A stretch of 64,000 nt of DNA, from assembly GCF_008727875.1 (NCBI RefSeq), contig NZ_VTWS01000001.1, positions 124,001 to 188,000 of the forward strand, given 5' to 3'. A program made the position numbers and the translations under genes. A model generated the notes under the pieces. The model had not been told where the DNA came from. It worked only from the letters and a program-made list of their open reading frames with translations, and did not search any database. Numbering within the stretch: position 1 is the first letter of the stretch; the number at the start of each line of letters is the position of its first letter. Source of the DNA: Larkinella humicola (lineage in GTDB: Bacteria > Bacteroidota > Bacteroidia > Cytophagales > Spirosomataceae). Below, in pieces: positions 22,282 through 48,689 of the stretch.

Positions 22282-22372
22282 GCTTTCTGCCCCTAAATCC
22301 CCTGAAGGGGACTTGGACGCGAAACCTTCAGGATGCTACAAGTCCCCTTCAGGGGATTTAGGGGCAGAAAGC
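22282..22372. repeat. Family A palindrome, copy 1
   Basis: Perfect 32-nt arms (22282-22313 and 22341-22372) containing CCCCTAAATCCCCTGAAG, with a 27-nt loop that carries, on the minus strand, GCATCC and CGCGTCCA as in other copies. It begins 36 bp after the stop of the cytochrome/HEAT gene (minus strand). Confidence 0.9.
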
Positions 22373-42592: not shown

Positions 42593-43183
42593 ATGAGCAC
42601 CCGAGAAAGTATACTGGCTGCGGTTTTGAAAAACCAGCCTCCCGCCAGTCCGTTGCCCGATCTGTCTTTTTTAAAGGGCAATCGACCGGACATCGTTTCA
42701 ACCTATCAGGCGGTTTTTACCAGCATCGGCGGCAGCGTCTTTGTCGTTGACGATCTGGCCGCCGTGAACGCCCGGCTTCTGGAGAACTTCGATTCTACGA
42801 AACGGCTGGTAACCACCCTGCCGGACCTGGGCGAACCGTTTGAAGTTCTCTCCAAAACCGCCGATCCGCGCACCTTCAACGATGTCGAACTGGCCGTGAT
42901 CGAAGCCCAACTGGCCGTGGCCGAAAACGGGGCGGTCTGGCTCCCGGAACAACGGATGGGGCAACGCATTATTCCGTATATCTGCCAGCATCTGGCGGTG
43001 GTCGTTCGGGCCGAAACCATCGTTCCGACCCTGCACGAAGCCTATGCGCAAATCGGGGTGGGCGATTACGGTTTTGGTGCGTTCATCGGCGGCCCCTCCA
43101 AAACGGCGGACATCGAGCAGGCGCTGGTGATGGGCGCGCACGGACCGATTACGATGAGCGTGTTTATTTTAACTACTAATTAG
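42593..43183 (+). CDS. lutC: L-lactate utilisation protein C (LUD domain)
   Basis: 196-aa LUD-domain protein completing lutABC. Contains VEAQLAVAENGAVWLPEQRMGQR-type block (AVIEAQLAVAENGAVW), HLAVVVRAETIVPTL and IGGPSKTADIEQALVMGAHGP, a LUD hallmark. It starts 34 bp after lutB. A family A palindrome follows 18 bp after its stop. Confidence 0.93.
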   Translation: MSTRESILAAVLKNQPPASPLPDLSFLKGNRPDIVSTYQAVFTSIGGSVFVVDDLAAVNARLLENFDSTKRLVTTLPDLGEPFEVLSKTADPRTFNDVELAVIEAQLAVAENGAVWLPEQRMGQRIIPYICQHLAVVVRAETIVPTLHEAYAQIGVGDYGFGAFIGGPSKTADIEQALVMGAHGPITMSVFILTTN

Positions 43184-43200
43184 GAGATTTTATAATTTAT

Positions 43201-43309
43201 AGTCCTTTCGCTTTTTGCCCCTAAATCCCCTAAAGGGGACTATTAGCATCCGGATGATTCCGCGTCCAAGTCCCCTTTAGGGGATTTAGGGGCAAAAAGC
43301 GAAAAGACT
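43201..43309. repeat. Family A palindrome, copy 2
   Basis: 41-nt arms (43201-43241 and 43269-43309) with one mismatch, core perfect over 36 nt, built on CCCCTAAATCCCCTAAAG, with a 27-nt loop reading AGCATCCGGA and CCGCGTCCA. 18 bp after the lutC stop. Confidence 0.92.
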
Positions 43310-43329
43310 ATTCGCATCATTTGCTTTAA

Positions 43330-45246
43330 ATGATCAGTAACTCAACCCCGAACATGACCCTTATCATCCGCGACAACCTGCAGGAAACCTATACAGACGT
43401 CTATACCGACGAAGCCCTCGCGGCCCTTTCGGCACTGGCTCCCTTCAACCAACGCATCAAAACCGCCATGACCGACCGACTGAAACGGCGGGCTGATCGG
43501 CAAAAGACTAAAACCCGCATCACCTTCCTCGACCCGGAAAGTCTGATTCCCGGTACGGCGATTACCGTGCAGGACGCCCGTGACGGCCACTTCGAAGGCT
43601 CGGTTATTCCGGCCGACCTGCAACGCCAGTGGATTCAGGGAACCGGGCCAGCCGCCAAACCCAACGCCCCCGTCGAAAACAGCATCCGAAACGTGGCCTA
43701 CGCGCTGTTGTCGGGTGCCGACGGCTGGATGTTCGACGGCGAAGATGCGCTGGGACAAATTACCACCATGTCGCTCGACAACCAGCGCAACCTCAAACTC
43801 GCCATTCACAAAGACCCGGTTTTCCTGAAAGTAGCCGAACAGGTCGCCCAGGAAATGAACCGCTGGTCGAACTCATTTCTGGGCCGCGAAATGATCACCG
43901 ATTGGGAAACCCAACTGAATTTTACTACCAAAATCTTCCGGGCGCGGGGTCTTCACCTCGACGACCGGCACATCCGCGACGCCGACGGAACAGCTCTGGC
44001 CGCGTCTATTGTCGATGCGACACTCTACGTCGTCAATAATTATCAGGCACTGCAAAAAGCCGGTTCGTCCATCGTCCTGTATTTACCCAAAATCCAGACT
44101 GCCGGGGAAGCCGCCGTCTGGAACGACCTGCTCGACGCACTGGAAAGCCAGATTGGACTCCCCGCCGGAACGATTAAAGTGTATGTGCTGGTCGAACAAC
44201 TCGAAGCGACGCACCAGTTGATGGAAATCCGGGCGGCTTTGGGGAAACATTTCGTAGGCTACAATACCGGTCGCTGGGATTACATCAACAGCGTTTCGGA
44301 TGCAATGGCGTGGGACAAAACGTTCATTAATCCGAACATTGAAGCCATTACGATGACCTACGGGTACATGCGAAATTACGAAGACCGGGTTCGCCGGGCC
44401 GTCAACACACCGGACTTGCACGGCAATTTTGCCTTGTGGCAGGGCGGTATGGAACCCAACATTCCGGTGGGTTCCGAAGCCGGAGTCGCAGCCAGCATGG
44501 AAAAAGCCGTGGCGGGTGCCGGTCGCGAACAGCGCGAGGGAGCCAGCGGCAAGTGGGTGGCGCACTGGAAAATGGTACACATCGTCCGACCGGTTTGGGA
44601 GAAAGTGGGCGAAGCCAATCAGCTGGGCCGTGCATTTCCCCGGCTGACGTACACGCAAGCTGACGCCGACGGCTTAATTCTGATCGAACCGGCACCGACC
44701 GACATTCGGGGCGCGCGGAATCTGGTGAGTGTAGCGTTGCAATACGGTAATGCGTTCGGGCAGGGGATGCAGGCAGCAGCCCTGAAACCGGCGGATTTTT
44801 TCGGCAACGACGATATTTTGTACCTGATGGAAGACATGGCAACGGGCGAAATCCGGCTGAGTATTCTGTGGGAATGGATTCACAAAGGGGCGGTTTTGAC
44901 GGACGACGATCCCGAAACCGGAACACAGGCCGGGGCGTTTTTTTCGGAGGAACTGTACCAAAAACTGGTGGCCGAAGAATACGAAAAGCTGTTGAAAGCG
45001 GCTAGTAAGGATGTGTACGAATCCTCGAAAACGACGACCTTGCCCATTGCGCTGGAGATTGCGAACGTCTACACGCTGAGCGCAGTAAAACCGCCCTGGT
45101 TCATCGACCTGCTGAACATCAACCTCAACAATCTGGATCTGGACGTGGCGAAAAAACGGATTCTACTGTATATGAACACGCTGGTGCAGGACGGCAAACG
45201 AATCACCGAAAATTTAGACTTTGTAGCAACGAGTCCGTATGTTTAG
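43330..45246 (+). CDS. Malate synthase (divergent, long)
   Basis: 638-aa enzyme expected to condense glyoxylate with acetyl-CoA to malate. The key residues align: Arg in FRARGLHLDDRH, Glu in YVLVEQLEATHQLMEI, Asp in FVGYNTGRWDYI (NxGRWDYI signature) and the catalytic-base Asp in LMEDMATGEIR followed by LWEWIHKGA. It is about 100 aa longer than enterobacterial AceB, with weak similarity outside these blocks, so its substrate may differ somewhat. An ATG at 43354 is an alternative start. Malic enzyme follows 59 bp later; isocitrate lyase is not in the window. Confidence 0.85.
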   Translation: MISNSTPNMTLIIRDNLQETYTDVYTDEALAALSALAPFNQRIKTAMTDRLKRRADRQKTKTRITFLDPESLIPGTAITVQDARDGHFEGSVIPADLQRQWIQGTGPAAKPNAPVENSIRNVAYALLSGADGWMFDGEDALGQITTMSLDNQRNLKLAIHKDPVFLKVAEQVAQEMNRWSNSFLGREMITDWETQLNFTTKIFRARGLHLDDRHIRDADGTALAASIVDATLYVVNNYQALQKAGSSIVLYLPKIQTAGEAAVWNDLLDALESQIGLPAGTIKVYVLVEQLEATHQLMEIRAALGKHFVGYNTGRWDYINSVSDAMAWDKTFINPNIEAITMTYGYMRNYEDRVRRAVNTPDLHGNFALWQGGMEPNIPVGSEAGVAASMEKAVAGAGREQREGASGKWVAHWKMVHIVRPVWEKVGEANQLGRAFPRLTYTQADADGLILIEPAPTDIRGARNLVSVALQYGNAFGQGMQAAALKPADFFGNDDILYLMEDMATGEIRLSILWEWIHKGAVLTDDDPETGTQAGAFFSEELYQKLVAEEYEKLLKAASKDVYESSKTTTLPIALEIANVYTLSAVKPPWFIDLLNINLNNLDLDVAKKRILLYMNTLVQDGKRITENLDFVATSPYV

Positions 45247-45305
45247 GGGCGGTTTTTGGCAGCAGTGGGCTGTCGCAACAATCGCCATCAGCAAACTACG
45301 ATTCC

Positions 45306-47570
45306 ATGAGTTCGCAAAAATTACGGGAAGATGCGCTGCATTATCACGCCAAAGGACGTCCGGGAAAAATTGAGGTTGTTCCGACCAAAGAAACGCTAAA
45401 TCAACGGGATCTGTCGCTGGCTTATTCACCCGGCGTGGCGGAACCGTGTCTGGAAATTGCCAGCTTTCCCGAAAAAATTTACGATTACACGACCAAAGGC
45501 AATCTGGTGGCGGTGATCACCAACGGCACGGCGGTGTTGGGTCTGGGCGATATTGGCCCCGGCGCTTCCAAACCGGTGATGGAGGGAAAATGCCTGCTGT
45601 TTAAAATCTATGCCGACATCGATGCCTTCGATATTGAGCTGAATACCACCAACATCGATGAGTTTGTGCGGACCGTCAAGATTCTGGAGCCCACCTTTGG
45701 CGGGGTCAATCTGGAGGACATTGCCGCTCCGGCCTGCTTCGAAATTGAAGAGCGGCTCCGGAAAGAACTGACAATTCCGGTCATGCACGACGACCAGCAC
45801 GGCACCGCCATCACCAGCGCAGCGGCTTTGTTGAACGCGTTAACAATATCTGGTAAAGAAATCAGTGAGATCAAGCTGGCCGTCAATGGTGCCGGTGCGG
45901 CTGCCATCGCCTGTCTGGATTTGTACGTTGCACTGGGCGTTAAAAAAGAGCATATTACGGTTTTTGATAAGGACGGATTGCTGCACCCCGCCCGCACGAA
46001 TCTGGTTCCGAACCAATACAAGTACGTCCGGGATCAGCTCCCGGACGGCTGGACGCTGGCCGACGCCATGCAGGGTGCGGATGTGTTTCTGGGGTTATCG
46101 ATCGGGAAGGTCGTTAGCCAGGACATGGTCAAATCCATGGCGAAAGATTGCATCGTGTTTGCGATGGCGAATCCCACGCCCGAAATTTCCTACGAGGAAG
46201 CGGTTGCCGTCCGACCCGACATCATCATGGCCACGGGGCGGTCCGACTATCCCAATCAGGTAAACAATGTGCTGGGCTTCCCCTATATTTTTCGGGGTGC
46301 GCTGGATGTGCGGGCCACGGCGATTAACGAAGCGATGAAACTGGCGGCCGTTCGGGCGCTGGCCGATCTGGCGAAAAAGACGGTTCCTGAAATTGTCAAC
46401 ATGACCTACGGCCAACAGAATCTGTCGTTCGGAAGGCAATATATTTTGCCCAAACCGACGGACCCCCGACTTCTGACCACCGTTGCGCCCGCCGTAGCCA
46501 AAGCCGCGATGGAATCGGGGGTTGCCGGCAAGTTGATTACCGATTGGGAAGAATACCATTCGCAGTTATCGCACCGCATCGGCCTGGACAATTCGCTGAT
46601 TCGGGGCATTATCAACCAGGCGAAACGGTCGCCGAAACGGGTGGTTTTCACCGACGGCGAAAATCTGACGGTGCTACGGGCGGTTCAGGAAGTGCTTGAA
46701 CAGAAGATCGCGGTGCCGATTTTGCTGGGGAACGCGACGAAAATAAACCGGATCATTCGGGAAAATAAACTGGCGATCGAACGGGTTACCATCATTGATC
46801 CGCGTTCCCGGAAACAGGAAAAAACCGTGCTGGATTACGCCGAAGTGCTGTATGAAAAACGGAAACGGAAAGGACTGACCTTCGTCGATGCGAAGGGATT
46901 GATGCTGCACCGCAATTATTACGGCGCGGTGATGGTGGAAGTCGGGGCCGCCGATGTGTTGATTTCGGGCTTGACGCGCAATTACCCCCAAACGCTGCGA
47001 CCGGCCTTGCAGGTGATTGGACCACAGGACGGCATCAACAAGATTCTGGGGATGTATATCCTGATGAGTCGATTCGGCCCGATTTTCCTGGCCGACACCA
47101 CCGTCAACATCAGCCCGACCGCCGAGGAACTGGTGGAAATTGCCGAAATCACGGCTAATGAAGTGAAGCGGCTGAATGTGGAACCCCGCATCGCGTTTCT
47201 GTCTTATTCGACGTTTGGCAGTGCCGGTGGCGAAGACGCTCTGAAAATGCAGAAAGCCGTCAAAATTCTTCACGCCAAACGCCCGGATTTGATCGTCGAC
47301 GGTGAAATGCAGGCTCATTTGCCTTTCAATCTGAACTTATTGAAAGAAACGTATCCGTTCTCGCCCCTGGCGAAATCGGGCGCGAATACGCTGATTTTCC
47401 CCAATCTGTCATCGTCCAACATTGCGTATAATCTTTTGAAAGAAATTGCGCAGATTGAAAAAATCGGCCCGGTGTTGATGGGGCTGAAAAAACCGATCCA
47501 CGTTTTGCAACTCGGCAGTACGGTACGGGAAATTTTCAACATGGTTGCGGTCGCGGTTGTCGATCGGTAA
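45306..47570 (+). CDS. maeB: NADP-dependent malic enzyme with phosphotransacetylase domain
   Basis: 754-aa bidomain protein that decarboxylates malate to pyruvate. Malic enzyme N-terminal half: [52 protein letters not shown] and the nucleotide site [19 protein letters not shown]. Residues about 430-754 are the inactive-type phosphotransacetylase (Pta) domain ([37 protein letters not shown]) that senses acetyl-CoA. Full length. Converges on ribD with only 6 bp between stops. Confidence 0.96.
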
Positions 47571-47576
47571 TTCGGT

Positions 47577-48689
47577 TCAGGAAGGCCGGTACGTCATCAG
47601 CGAATCATCGCCGATCCGCTCGGTAGCGACCAGCCTTCCCCGAGCCACGGGAGCCGCCAGCCCTTCGCCCATCACTTTCAGACTTTTAAAAACCCGCACC
47701 TCATCCCAAAGCCCCAGATTCAGAAAGCTTTCCAGCAAAGCCGCCCCGCCTTCCACAATCACCGACTGAATTTTTTGCCGGTGTAAATCGGCGATGAGTT
47801 GGGGCAGGAAAGGAGTTTCAGGGTCTAATTGGACGTATTTTGTTAAAGCCCCTAAATCCCCTAAAGGGGACTTTGTGGATCCGGATTTTGCTGTGTCCAA
47901 GTCCCCTTTAGGGGATTTAGGGGCATCTACACCTGTTTCCTTTCCCGGCAAAACCGTATACACCAGCGTCGGCTGCAAACCGTCGAAAAGGTGCAGAGAA
48001 GCGGGTAATTGCAATTGCTTATCGATCACAATGCGAACGGGGTTGCGCCCGCTCCAGAGCCGGGCATTCAACTGCGGATTGTCGTGCCGGGCGGTGTTGG
48101 TCCCCACCATGATCGCATCTTCCTCCGTTCGCCATTTGTGGACCAACTGCCGCGACAGCGGGCTGCTGATCGGAATGGGGCGAAAATCGGCGGGAGCCAT
48201 AAAACCGTCGGCGGTTTCGGCCCATTTCAGAATCAGGTACGGTCGTTGTTGTTCGATAAAGGTAAAAAACCGCCGGTTCAATTCACGGCCCCGCTCGGCC
48301 AGCAAACCGGTTTCTACTTCAATACCGGCTGCCCGCAGTTTGGCTAACCCTTTGCCGGCCACCAGTGGATTCGGGTCGTCGTTGCAAACGATTACCTTTT
48401 TCACCCGTTTGGCAATCAGTAAATCGGCGCAGGGGGGCGTTTTTCCAAAATGCGAACACGGTTCCAGCGTGACGTAAACCGTCGATTCGGGCAGCAGTGA
48501 TTCGTCGGTTACCGAGCGAACGGCGTTCACTTCGGCGTGTGGGCCGCCGTACTGCCGGTGCCAGCCTTCGCCAATGATGCGCTGATTGTGGACAATGACG
48601 CAGCCCACCATCGGGTTTGGGCTGACGTGCCCCCGGCCCAGTTTGGCCAGTTCCAGGGCGCGGGACATGAATAAGGTGTCGTCAATCAA
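47577..48689 (-). CDS. ribD: Riboflavin biosynthesis protein RibD with palindromic insertion
   Basis: 370-aa bifunctional deaminase/reductase. Deaminase domain: zinc ligands in HAEVNAVRS (residues 51-53) and EPCSHFGKTPPCADLL (Cys78, Cys87), with NPMVGCVIV. Reductase domain from about 150: LILKWAETADGFMA, TEEDAIMVGTNTARHDNPQLNAR, SVIVEGGAALLESFLN. Residues about 256-281 (KSPKGDLDTAKSGSTKSPLG region) come from a family A palindrome that keeps frame, in a stretch between conserved blocks. The domain is otherwise complete, so the enzyme is probably functional. Confidence 0.94.
   Translation of the reverse strand: MIDDTLFMSRALELAKLGRGHVSPNPMVGCVIVHNQRIIGEGWHRQYGGPHAEVNAVRSVTDESLLPESTVYVTLEPCSHFGKTPPCADLLIAKRVKKVIVCNDDPNPLVAGKGLAKLRAAGIEVETGLLAERGRELNRRFFTFIEQQRPYLILKWAETADGFMAPADFRPIPISSPLSRQLVHKWRTEEDAIMVGTNTARHDNPQLNARLWSGRNPVRIVIDKQLQLPASLHLFDGLQPTLVYTVLPGKETGVDAPKSPKGDLDTAKSGSTKSPLGDLGALTKYVQLDPETPFLPQLIADLHRQKIQSVIVEGGAALLESFLNLGLWDEVRVFKSLKVMGEGLAAPVARGRLVATERIGDDSLMTYRPS
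47848..47924. repeat. Family A palindrome inserted inside ribD
   Basis: Perfect 25-nt arms (47848-47872, 47900-47924) around CCCCTAAATCCCCTAAAG with a 27-nt loop containing GGATCCGGA and GTGTCCA. It is in frame with ribD and adds about 26 codons. No obvious target-site duplication was seen. Confidence 0.92.

Follow-up and report, generated by a model that had tools for sequence, protein, structure and literature searches.

An in-frame palindrome in ribD of Larkinella humicola belongs to a mainly extragenic repeat family that is probably reshaped between its own arms

The window analysed here is a 64,000-nt stretch of the 7.86-Mb genome of Larkinella humicola (G000; C11:124001-188000). The gene ribD lies on its minus strand and carries, in frame, a perfect palindrome. 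Other copies of the same element lie between ORFs of the window. The features are as follows.

47577..48689, minus strand: ribD, bifunctional deaminase/reductase; an ORF with Pfam PF00383 and PF01872 and with PDB relatives, e.g. 2b3z
47848..47924, no strand assigned: palindromic element within ribD, in frame; 26-nt perfect arms, 25-nt loop, 77 nt
47848..47873, no strand assigned: arm 1 (left on the plus strand); includes CCCCTAAAGGGG, which can form its own small hairpin
47874..47898, no strand assigned: loop of the ribD element, 25 nt between the arms
47899..47924, no strand assigned: arm 2, the reverse complement of arm 1; a perfect inverted repeat
43218..43292, no strand assigned: further copy between ORFs; complementary outer arms; loop inverted, at 100% identity, at the L. 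punicea site
22290..22364, no strand assigned: further copy between ORFs; TTCA variant, the change matched in both arms

The ribD ORF runs for 370 codons from TTG, and the database copy of the protein (P0001) has 363 aa. A preliminary description of the window had placed an in-frame palindrome at 47848-47924. It is present there, the ORF is open, and both domains, PF00383 and PF01872, are recognised by Pfam. On the coding (minus) strand the element encodes APKSPKGDLDTAKSGSTKSPLGDLGA. Its length of 77 nt stands as first described, while the 25-nt arms and 27-nt loop given then are another division of the same sequence, in which the perfect arms measure 26 nt and the loop 25. The loop was also said to be as long as in intergenic copies. 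In the 24-nt arm frame used for this comparison, which covers the two-armed copies collected in G000, a 27-nt loop is shared with 31 of 66 other copies, whereas the others range from 18 to 43 nt. Rfam gave no matches at gathering thresholds in positions 43000-48200 of the window, and a literature search outside most subscription journals found no paper on palindromes in Larkinella.

Nine Larkinella genomes (G000-G008) were compared, among them L. arboricola (G001), L. knui (G003), L. punicea (G004), L. rosea (G005) and Larkinella sp. C7 (G007). Only G000 and G004 give an unbroken, full-length RibD match; in the other seven it is split at about residues 252/282. Aligned ribD DNA confirms the gap where the element is absent, and the open frame has 372 codons in G000 vs 345 in G007, a net 27 codons. 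Across the wider phylum the insert occurs in 4 of 46 RibD sequences; the other 42 have 2-9 residues at this position. The clean gap expected of an insertion is thus found in the orthologues, and no distant relative among the RibD sequences compared carries the segment as non-palindromic DNA. Judged from these gaps in relatives, the alignments show the ribD palindrome to be an insertion. A search of 5.8 billion proteins with the peptide region, which reaches similar-length proteins sharing exact words, found the peptide, besides in the window's own protein, in P0002 and P0003, which are RibD proteins from other genomes.

The carriers differ from one another. The L. punicea ribD copy is an altered one, a mosaic that includes a second arm type, and P0002 and P0003, known from their proteins alone, retain the arm peptides. 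G000 and G004 have the same right junction, and the left junction differs between carriers. On a RibD tree built with the insert cut out, the carriers G000, G004 and P0003 form a clade that also contains G007, which has no insert, and the carrier P0002 falls outside it. Insert status requires at least two changes on this tree, and loss, allele replacement or repeated insertion must therefore have occurred.

An AlphaFold2 model of RibD, made with 46 sequences, has a mean pLDDT of 87, and 247 of its 370 residues reach at least 90. All 25 residues with pLDDT below 50 lie at 255-275 and 277-280, between the strands at 241-245 and 283-287; a weaker block at residues 181-190 has a mean of 67. The PF01872 match (150-344) spans the insert. 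Because the low-pLDDT residues fall between two strands and PF01872 runs through the insert, the insert is predicted to form a flexible loop in the RibD reductase domain.

The palindrome belongs to a dispersed family. One 24-nt arm gave 83 + 78 = 161 half-arm matches in G000 (≤3 mismatches), and a reversed-arm control gave none in the same genome at the same threshold. From part of these half-arms, 77 distinct copies were collected (67 two-armed, 10 one-armed), and the two-armed copies always have both arms in the same inverted order. The G004 sample comprises 74 copies, about half of those in that genome, picked by translated search. Arm scanning at ≤4 mismatches overlooks strongly altered copies, for example the membrane-protein and LeuRS copies of G000. 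At ≤2 mismatches, the arm is present in 45 of 222 genomes of the host's family (7 of 36 genera), and half-arm totals within the genus are 275 in G004, 146 in G000, 90 in G008, 5 in G003, 4 in G007, 2 in G006, 1 in G005 and none in G001 or G002.

The common form of the element is mainly extragenic. Between ORFs lie 70 of the 77 collected G000 copies (39 same-strand, 19 convergent, 9 divergent, 3 unclear), as split by a codon-usage ORF caller, under which an out-of-frame broken gene could hide among the 39 same-strand copies. The median distance of the collected intergenic copies is 30 bp to neighbouring 3' ends and 81 bp to 5' ends. The seven copies inside ORFs include four that are internal and in frame and three at C-termini. 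These C-terminal copies (L226 2501, L147 2506 and L133 2501) supply the last ORF residues, and the repeat may alter protein ends. In some copies of both G000 and G004 one arm is broken or replaced by a GTCCGGCAGCGGCCGAC-like imperfect palindrome (L146, L141 2501, L041, L177 4135, L196 1217).

The search for the element in other coding sequences was productive. It occurs in frame in six more Larkinella gene families, each with relatives lacking the segment, which makes seven families genus-wide with RibD, LeuRS and IleRS included. A molybdopterin oxidoreductase/nitrate-reductase-like protein (nas) carries it in G000 and G004, and it is absent in 7 of 9 genomes. In the lantibiotic dehydratase (lanB) it lies between the N and C domains in G000 and G008, in altered form in G004, and also in P0005; four of the seven genomes compared are without it (G001 and G002 have no match to this protein). 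A DUF5107/TPR protein has it in G000 and, altered, in G004, and five of seven genomes are without it (no match in G006 or G008). A small membrane protein has it in G000, G003, G004, G007 and G008, two of these altered, with three of eight genomes without it (no match in G006). LeuRS carries it in G000, where the insert is followed almost at once by conserved YEYELSTMPGWAGSSWYW; it is absent in 6 of 9, and the shorter peptides of G004 and G008, TPQSPKGEEK and TPQSPEGDEK, look like remnants. In IleRS it occurs in G004 and G008, with 7 of 9 genomes without it; this stretch, cut by the locus end, falls just under the family cut-off. A serine-hydrolase-like gene (G000:C1:44942) with an unclear start codon is not part of the in-frame count. 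Comparison with relatives, whose flanks have diverged, gave no clean target-site duplication in ribD, nas, lanB or DUF5107, and in the DUF5107 gene the target sequence is replaced at the insert. In G003, G005, G007 and G008, the nas linker that corresponds to the palindrome site of G000 and G004 contains different peptides, variable and partly repeated, such as ENRIPKTENRIPETGTK in G005.

The six further families and the RibD gap support the analogy, drawn at the outset, to the palindromic elements that insert in frame in Rickettsia genes. In-frame palindromic repeats are, however, not limited to Rickettsia: they are known from many bacteria, with O. terrae, Thauera and X. oryzae among the examples in PMC3733652. 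Like the Rickettsia palindromic elements (RPE), as described in PMC10969869 and PMC3733652, the Larkinella palindromes lie in frame in unrelated genes. Unlike RPE, the common Larkinella form has no in-gene bias (7/77 collected copies in ORFs), the host is a Bacteroidota species with a 7.9-Mb genome, and the loop inverts; the likeness was judged from published descriptions of RPE.

A second comparison is with CGTC-tagged REP dimers, which, according to PMC3733652, are recorded in Bacteroidetes and are said to include RPE-4, RPE-6 and Neisseria dRS3. As described there, these too are inverted dimers with a 4-nt loop and an 8-bp stem whose first two positions are A-T; they have copies near gene 3' ends and some in genes, lack a flanking RAYT, and include dimers inside longer palindromes never found alone. 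The Larkinella unit stem-loop, AAGTCCCC-TTTA-GGGGATTT, with one G-T pair by eye, fits the CGTC stem of 8-9 bp and loop of 4-5 nt. Unlike in CGTC REP, a C/TGTC tag stands at one loop end in 54 of 67 G000 copies, at neither in 13 and at both in none, and the 3 nt past the stem are AGG (130 of 134 G000 arms) where CGTC REP have CCA.

REPIN/RAYT (GTAG) elements share the layout of two inverted hairpin units round a short spacer, but the Larkinella arm ends carry no GTAG tag and the copies are not associated with Y1_Tnp genes. This bears on the possibility that the ribD copy is a REPIN moved by a RAYT (a TnpA-REP-like transposase) and that in-gene copies are ordinary landings. G000 does have seven PF01797 (Y1_Tnp) matches, which together with the REPIN-like layout would suit such a mobile element. 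However, of the 28 Y1_Tnp loci of the genus only one has the element within about 1.5 kb, and copy number does not track transposase count (five matches and 4 half-arms in G007, three matches and 275 half-arms in G004). Examined around all 28 genus matches, mobilisation by a RAYT was not supported, and we consider it unlikely. We assign the element to none of RPE, CGTC REP and REPIN/RAYT; it works like an in-frame REP or RPE.

Copies at orthologous sites differ in loop orientation. G000 and G004 share ten sites at which both flanks could be aligned. Loop orientation is the same at five of them and inverted at the other five, one of which is the window copy at 43218-43292. Two of the inverted pairs are at 100% identity and three at 85-96%, and the aligned flanks reach the arms. 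Not counted among the ten are one-armed, composite and one-flank pairs (L146/L199 and others), of which L148/L165 and L027/L177_4135 look inverted and L146/L199 the same; pairs with flanks at 67-72% (L013/L172, L021/L175, L035/L174, L149/L183); and pairs involving other genomes, where L009/L157 is inverted (0.67), L153/L173 and L154/L162 are the same and L140/L159 is one-armed. Opposite loops at a shared site could also result from independent insertions in opposite orientation, with no inversion in place. Some shared sites, such as L002/L178 with loops 0.67 identical, are indeed too different for one inherited copy, and the left RibD junction varies between carriers. Against such insertions stand the inverted pairs, two at 100% identity and three at 85-96%, whose flanks align as far as the arms. 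Among the copies listed, loops mostly differ from one copy to the next. The right RibD junction, the same in G000 and G004, also speaks against them, and we hold this account to be very unlikely.

In ribD, the loop with neighbouring arm bases reads LDTAKSGST on the coding strand, and the computed inverted loop reads FVDPDFAVS. The peptide is LDTAKSGST in G000 and LDALASGCV in P0002, and P0003 and G004 have FKHPDAGAS, as expected of the opposite orientation. Judging by these peptides, RibD proteins carry loops of both orientations.

Some changes in one arm are also present in the other. At the main variable arm site, G000 copies are A/A in 51, G/G in 12 and mixed in 4 (n=67), so that the arms agree in 63 of 67; in G004 the counts are 56, 9 and 1 (n=66). 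Other arm sites are mostly one-sided, with matched changes numbering 3 vs 58 in G000 and 6 vs 17 in G004, and correction between arms is therefore partial. Single sites show the same change in both arms (L010/L212), the same one-base length change in both outer arms (L013/L190) and a left outer arm that appears rewritten from the right one (L018/L184). Outer arms differ among copies yet pair. At least 11 of 14 sites are complementary in 22 of 65 G000 copies (the 67 less two with 43-nt loops), against a mean of 2.5 and a maximum of 8 copies when outer arms are shuffled, and in 27 of 66 G004 copies (shuffled mean 6.3, maximum 13). No such pairing was seen in six G008 copies or three G003 copies. 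Insertion into a pre-existing palindrome was considered as well, and the commonest outer palindrome was found without the core in 0 of 9 genomes (exact pattern, ≤12 nt between).

These observations most likely reflect an extragenic REP-like repeat that inserted in frame into proteins and was then reshaped by template switching between its arms, a reading drawn from sequence comparison. A mainly extragenic REP-like palindromic family, expanded in some Larkinella species, has entered several proteins in frame, including RibD, as the gaps in relatives show. The inserted peptide is probably tolerated, because the frame is kept and the predicted structure puts the insert in a loop or linker. After insertion, the pattern suggests, polymerase would switch template between the inverted arms, which would match the arms, extend pairing into the flanks and invert the loop. 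For ribD, an inverted loop would swap one nine-residue peptide for another without closing the frame. The element would thus act as a selfish or neutral repeat, seeding and then reshaping protein loops. Template switching between inverted repeats is reported to homogenise arms and invert spacers in yeast genes (PMC8604942) and to cause loop inversions (PMC8794818), and chloroplast spacers show frequent inversions tied to palindromes (PMC2903610). The Larkinella elements resemble both the yeast and the chloroplast cases. Those, however, concern resident inverted repeats, whereas in Larkinella a dispersed repeat must first bring the palindrome into the gene.

The insert might instead be functional, with an mRNA hairpin or the peptide tuning RibD and kept by selection. 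It is found in four RibD genomes, and the coding strand of the ribD element folds at -56.9 kcal/mol (z -9.7). Moreover, with the loop inverted in silico, all six scored in-gene copies are open both ways, where scoring took copies with 27-nt loops (which leaves out nas) and not the altered G004 ribD copy. Of 96 other copies, however, 29 are open both ways, and for 87 the orientation makes no difference to whether the frame is open or closed. No selection for invertibility is therefore implied, as the result follows from frame keeping. The copy is also altered in L. punicea and absent in 7 of 9 genus genomes, and a function of this kind is highly improbable.

Larkinella adds another example of palindromic repeats that seed peptides into proteins, RibD, LeuRS and IleRS being among the enzymes concerned. 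One genus here offers carriers, non-carriers and altered copies for comparison, and at orthologous sites the repeat is seen rewritten by its own symmetry. This may account for an oddity known from other REP families, whose dimers can sit inside long palindromes that do not occur by themselves (PMC3733652, section 7), and Larkinella loci could serve to measure the rate of template-switch inversion in bacteria.

Several in-gene copies have a second outer-arm type, CCCCTAAAGTCGTGCGCGACCC and its complement, which encodes APKVVRDPGPKGD or PGSRTTLGA (seen at L370-L384, L365 1186-1290, L366 701-865 and the L203 ribD region). In the G004 DUF5107 gene, second-type arms form a long palindrome round the usual core, with one change in both arms. 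This type is rare, with 15 half-arm matches across the nine genomes (8 in G004, 5 in G000, 1 each in G003 and G007; ≤3 mismatches) and none for a control at the same threshold. Long open frames hold 14 of the 15 matches and 12 of the 13 loci, the exception being G003, with no long ORF; three of the 12 (L378, L381, L382) have doubtful start codons. Nine of these loci are internal to the insert-bearing genes already described, and three lie near signal peptides. Compared with the common form, 12/13 vs 7/77 loci are in ORFs (Fisher p 2e-9, a test that mixes genomes and has one locus common to both rows), and in G000 alone 4/4 vs 7/77 (Fisher p 2e-4). The second arm type is strongly biased to ORFs, a likeness to RPE.

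The new features here are loop inversion at orthologous sites and this gene-biased arm type, which makes the adaptation of such repeats to coding sequence testable. A two-form element could be imagined, with an extragenic palindrome and a gene-dwelling form that has its own arms, spreads in frame from gene to gene and inverts its loops between perfect arms, exchanging one open peptide for the other, to diversify proteins. If true, this would amount to slow, recombinase-free protein diversification, LeuRS and IleRS included, and we give it only a small chance. In L378 and L381 (a TonB-receptor-like gene) and in L382, where starts are unsure, copies appear to split the signal peptide, with its first residues on one side and its hydrophobic core on the other. 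With the true start codon of L378 unsure, its order reads MKLKVYRSI, the insert and then VFLLFFLIANAGLAQ.
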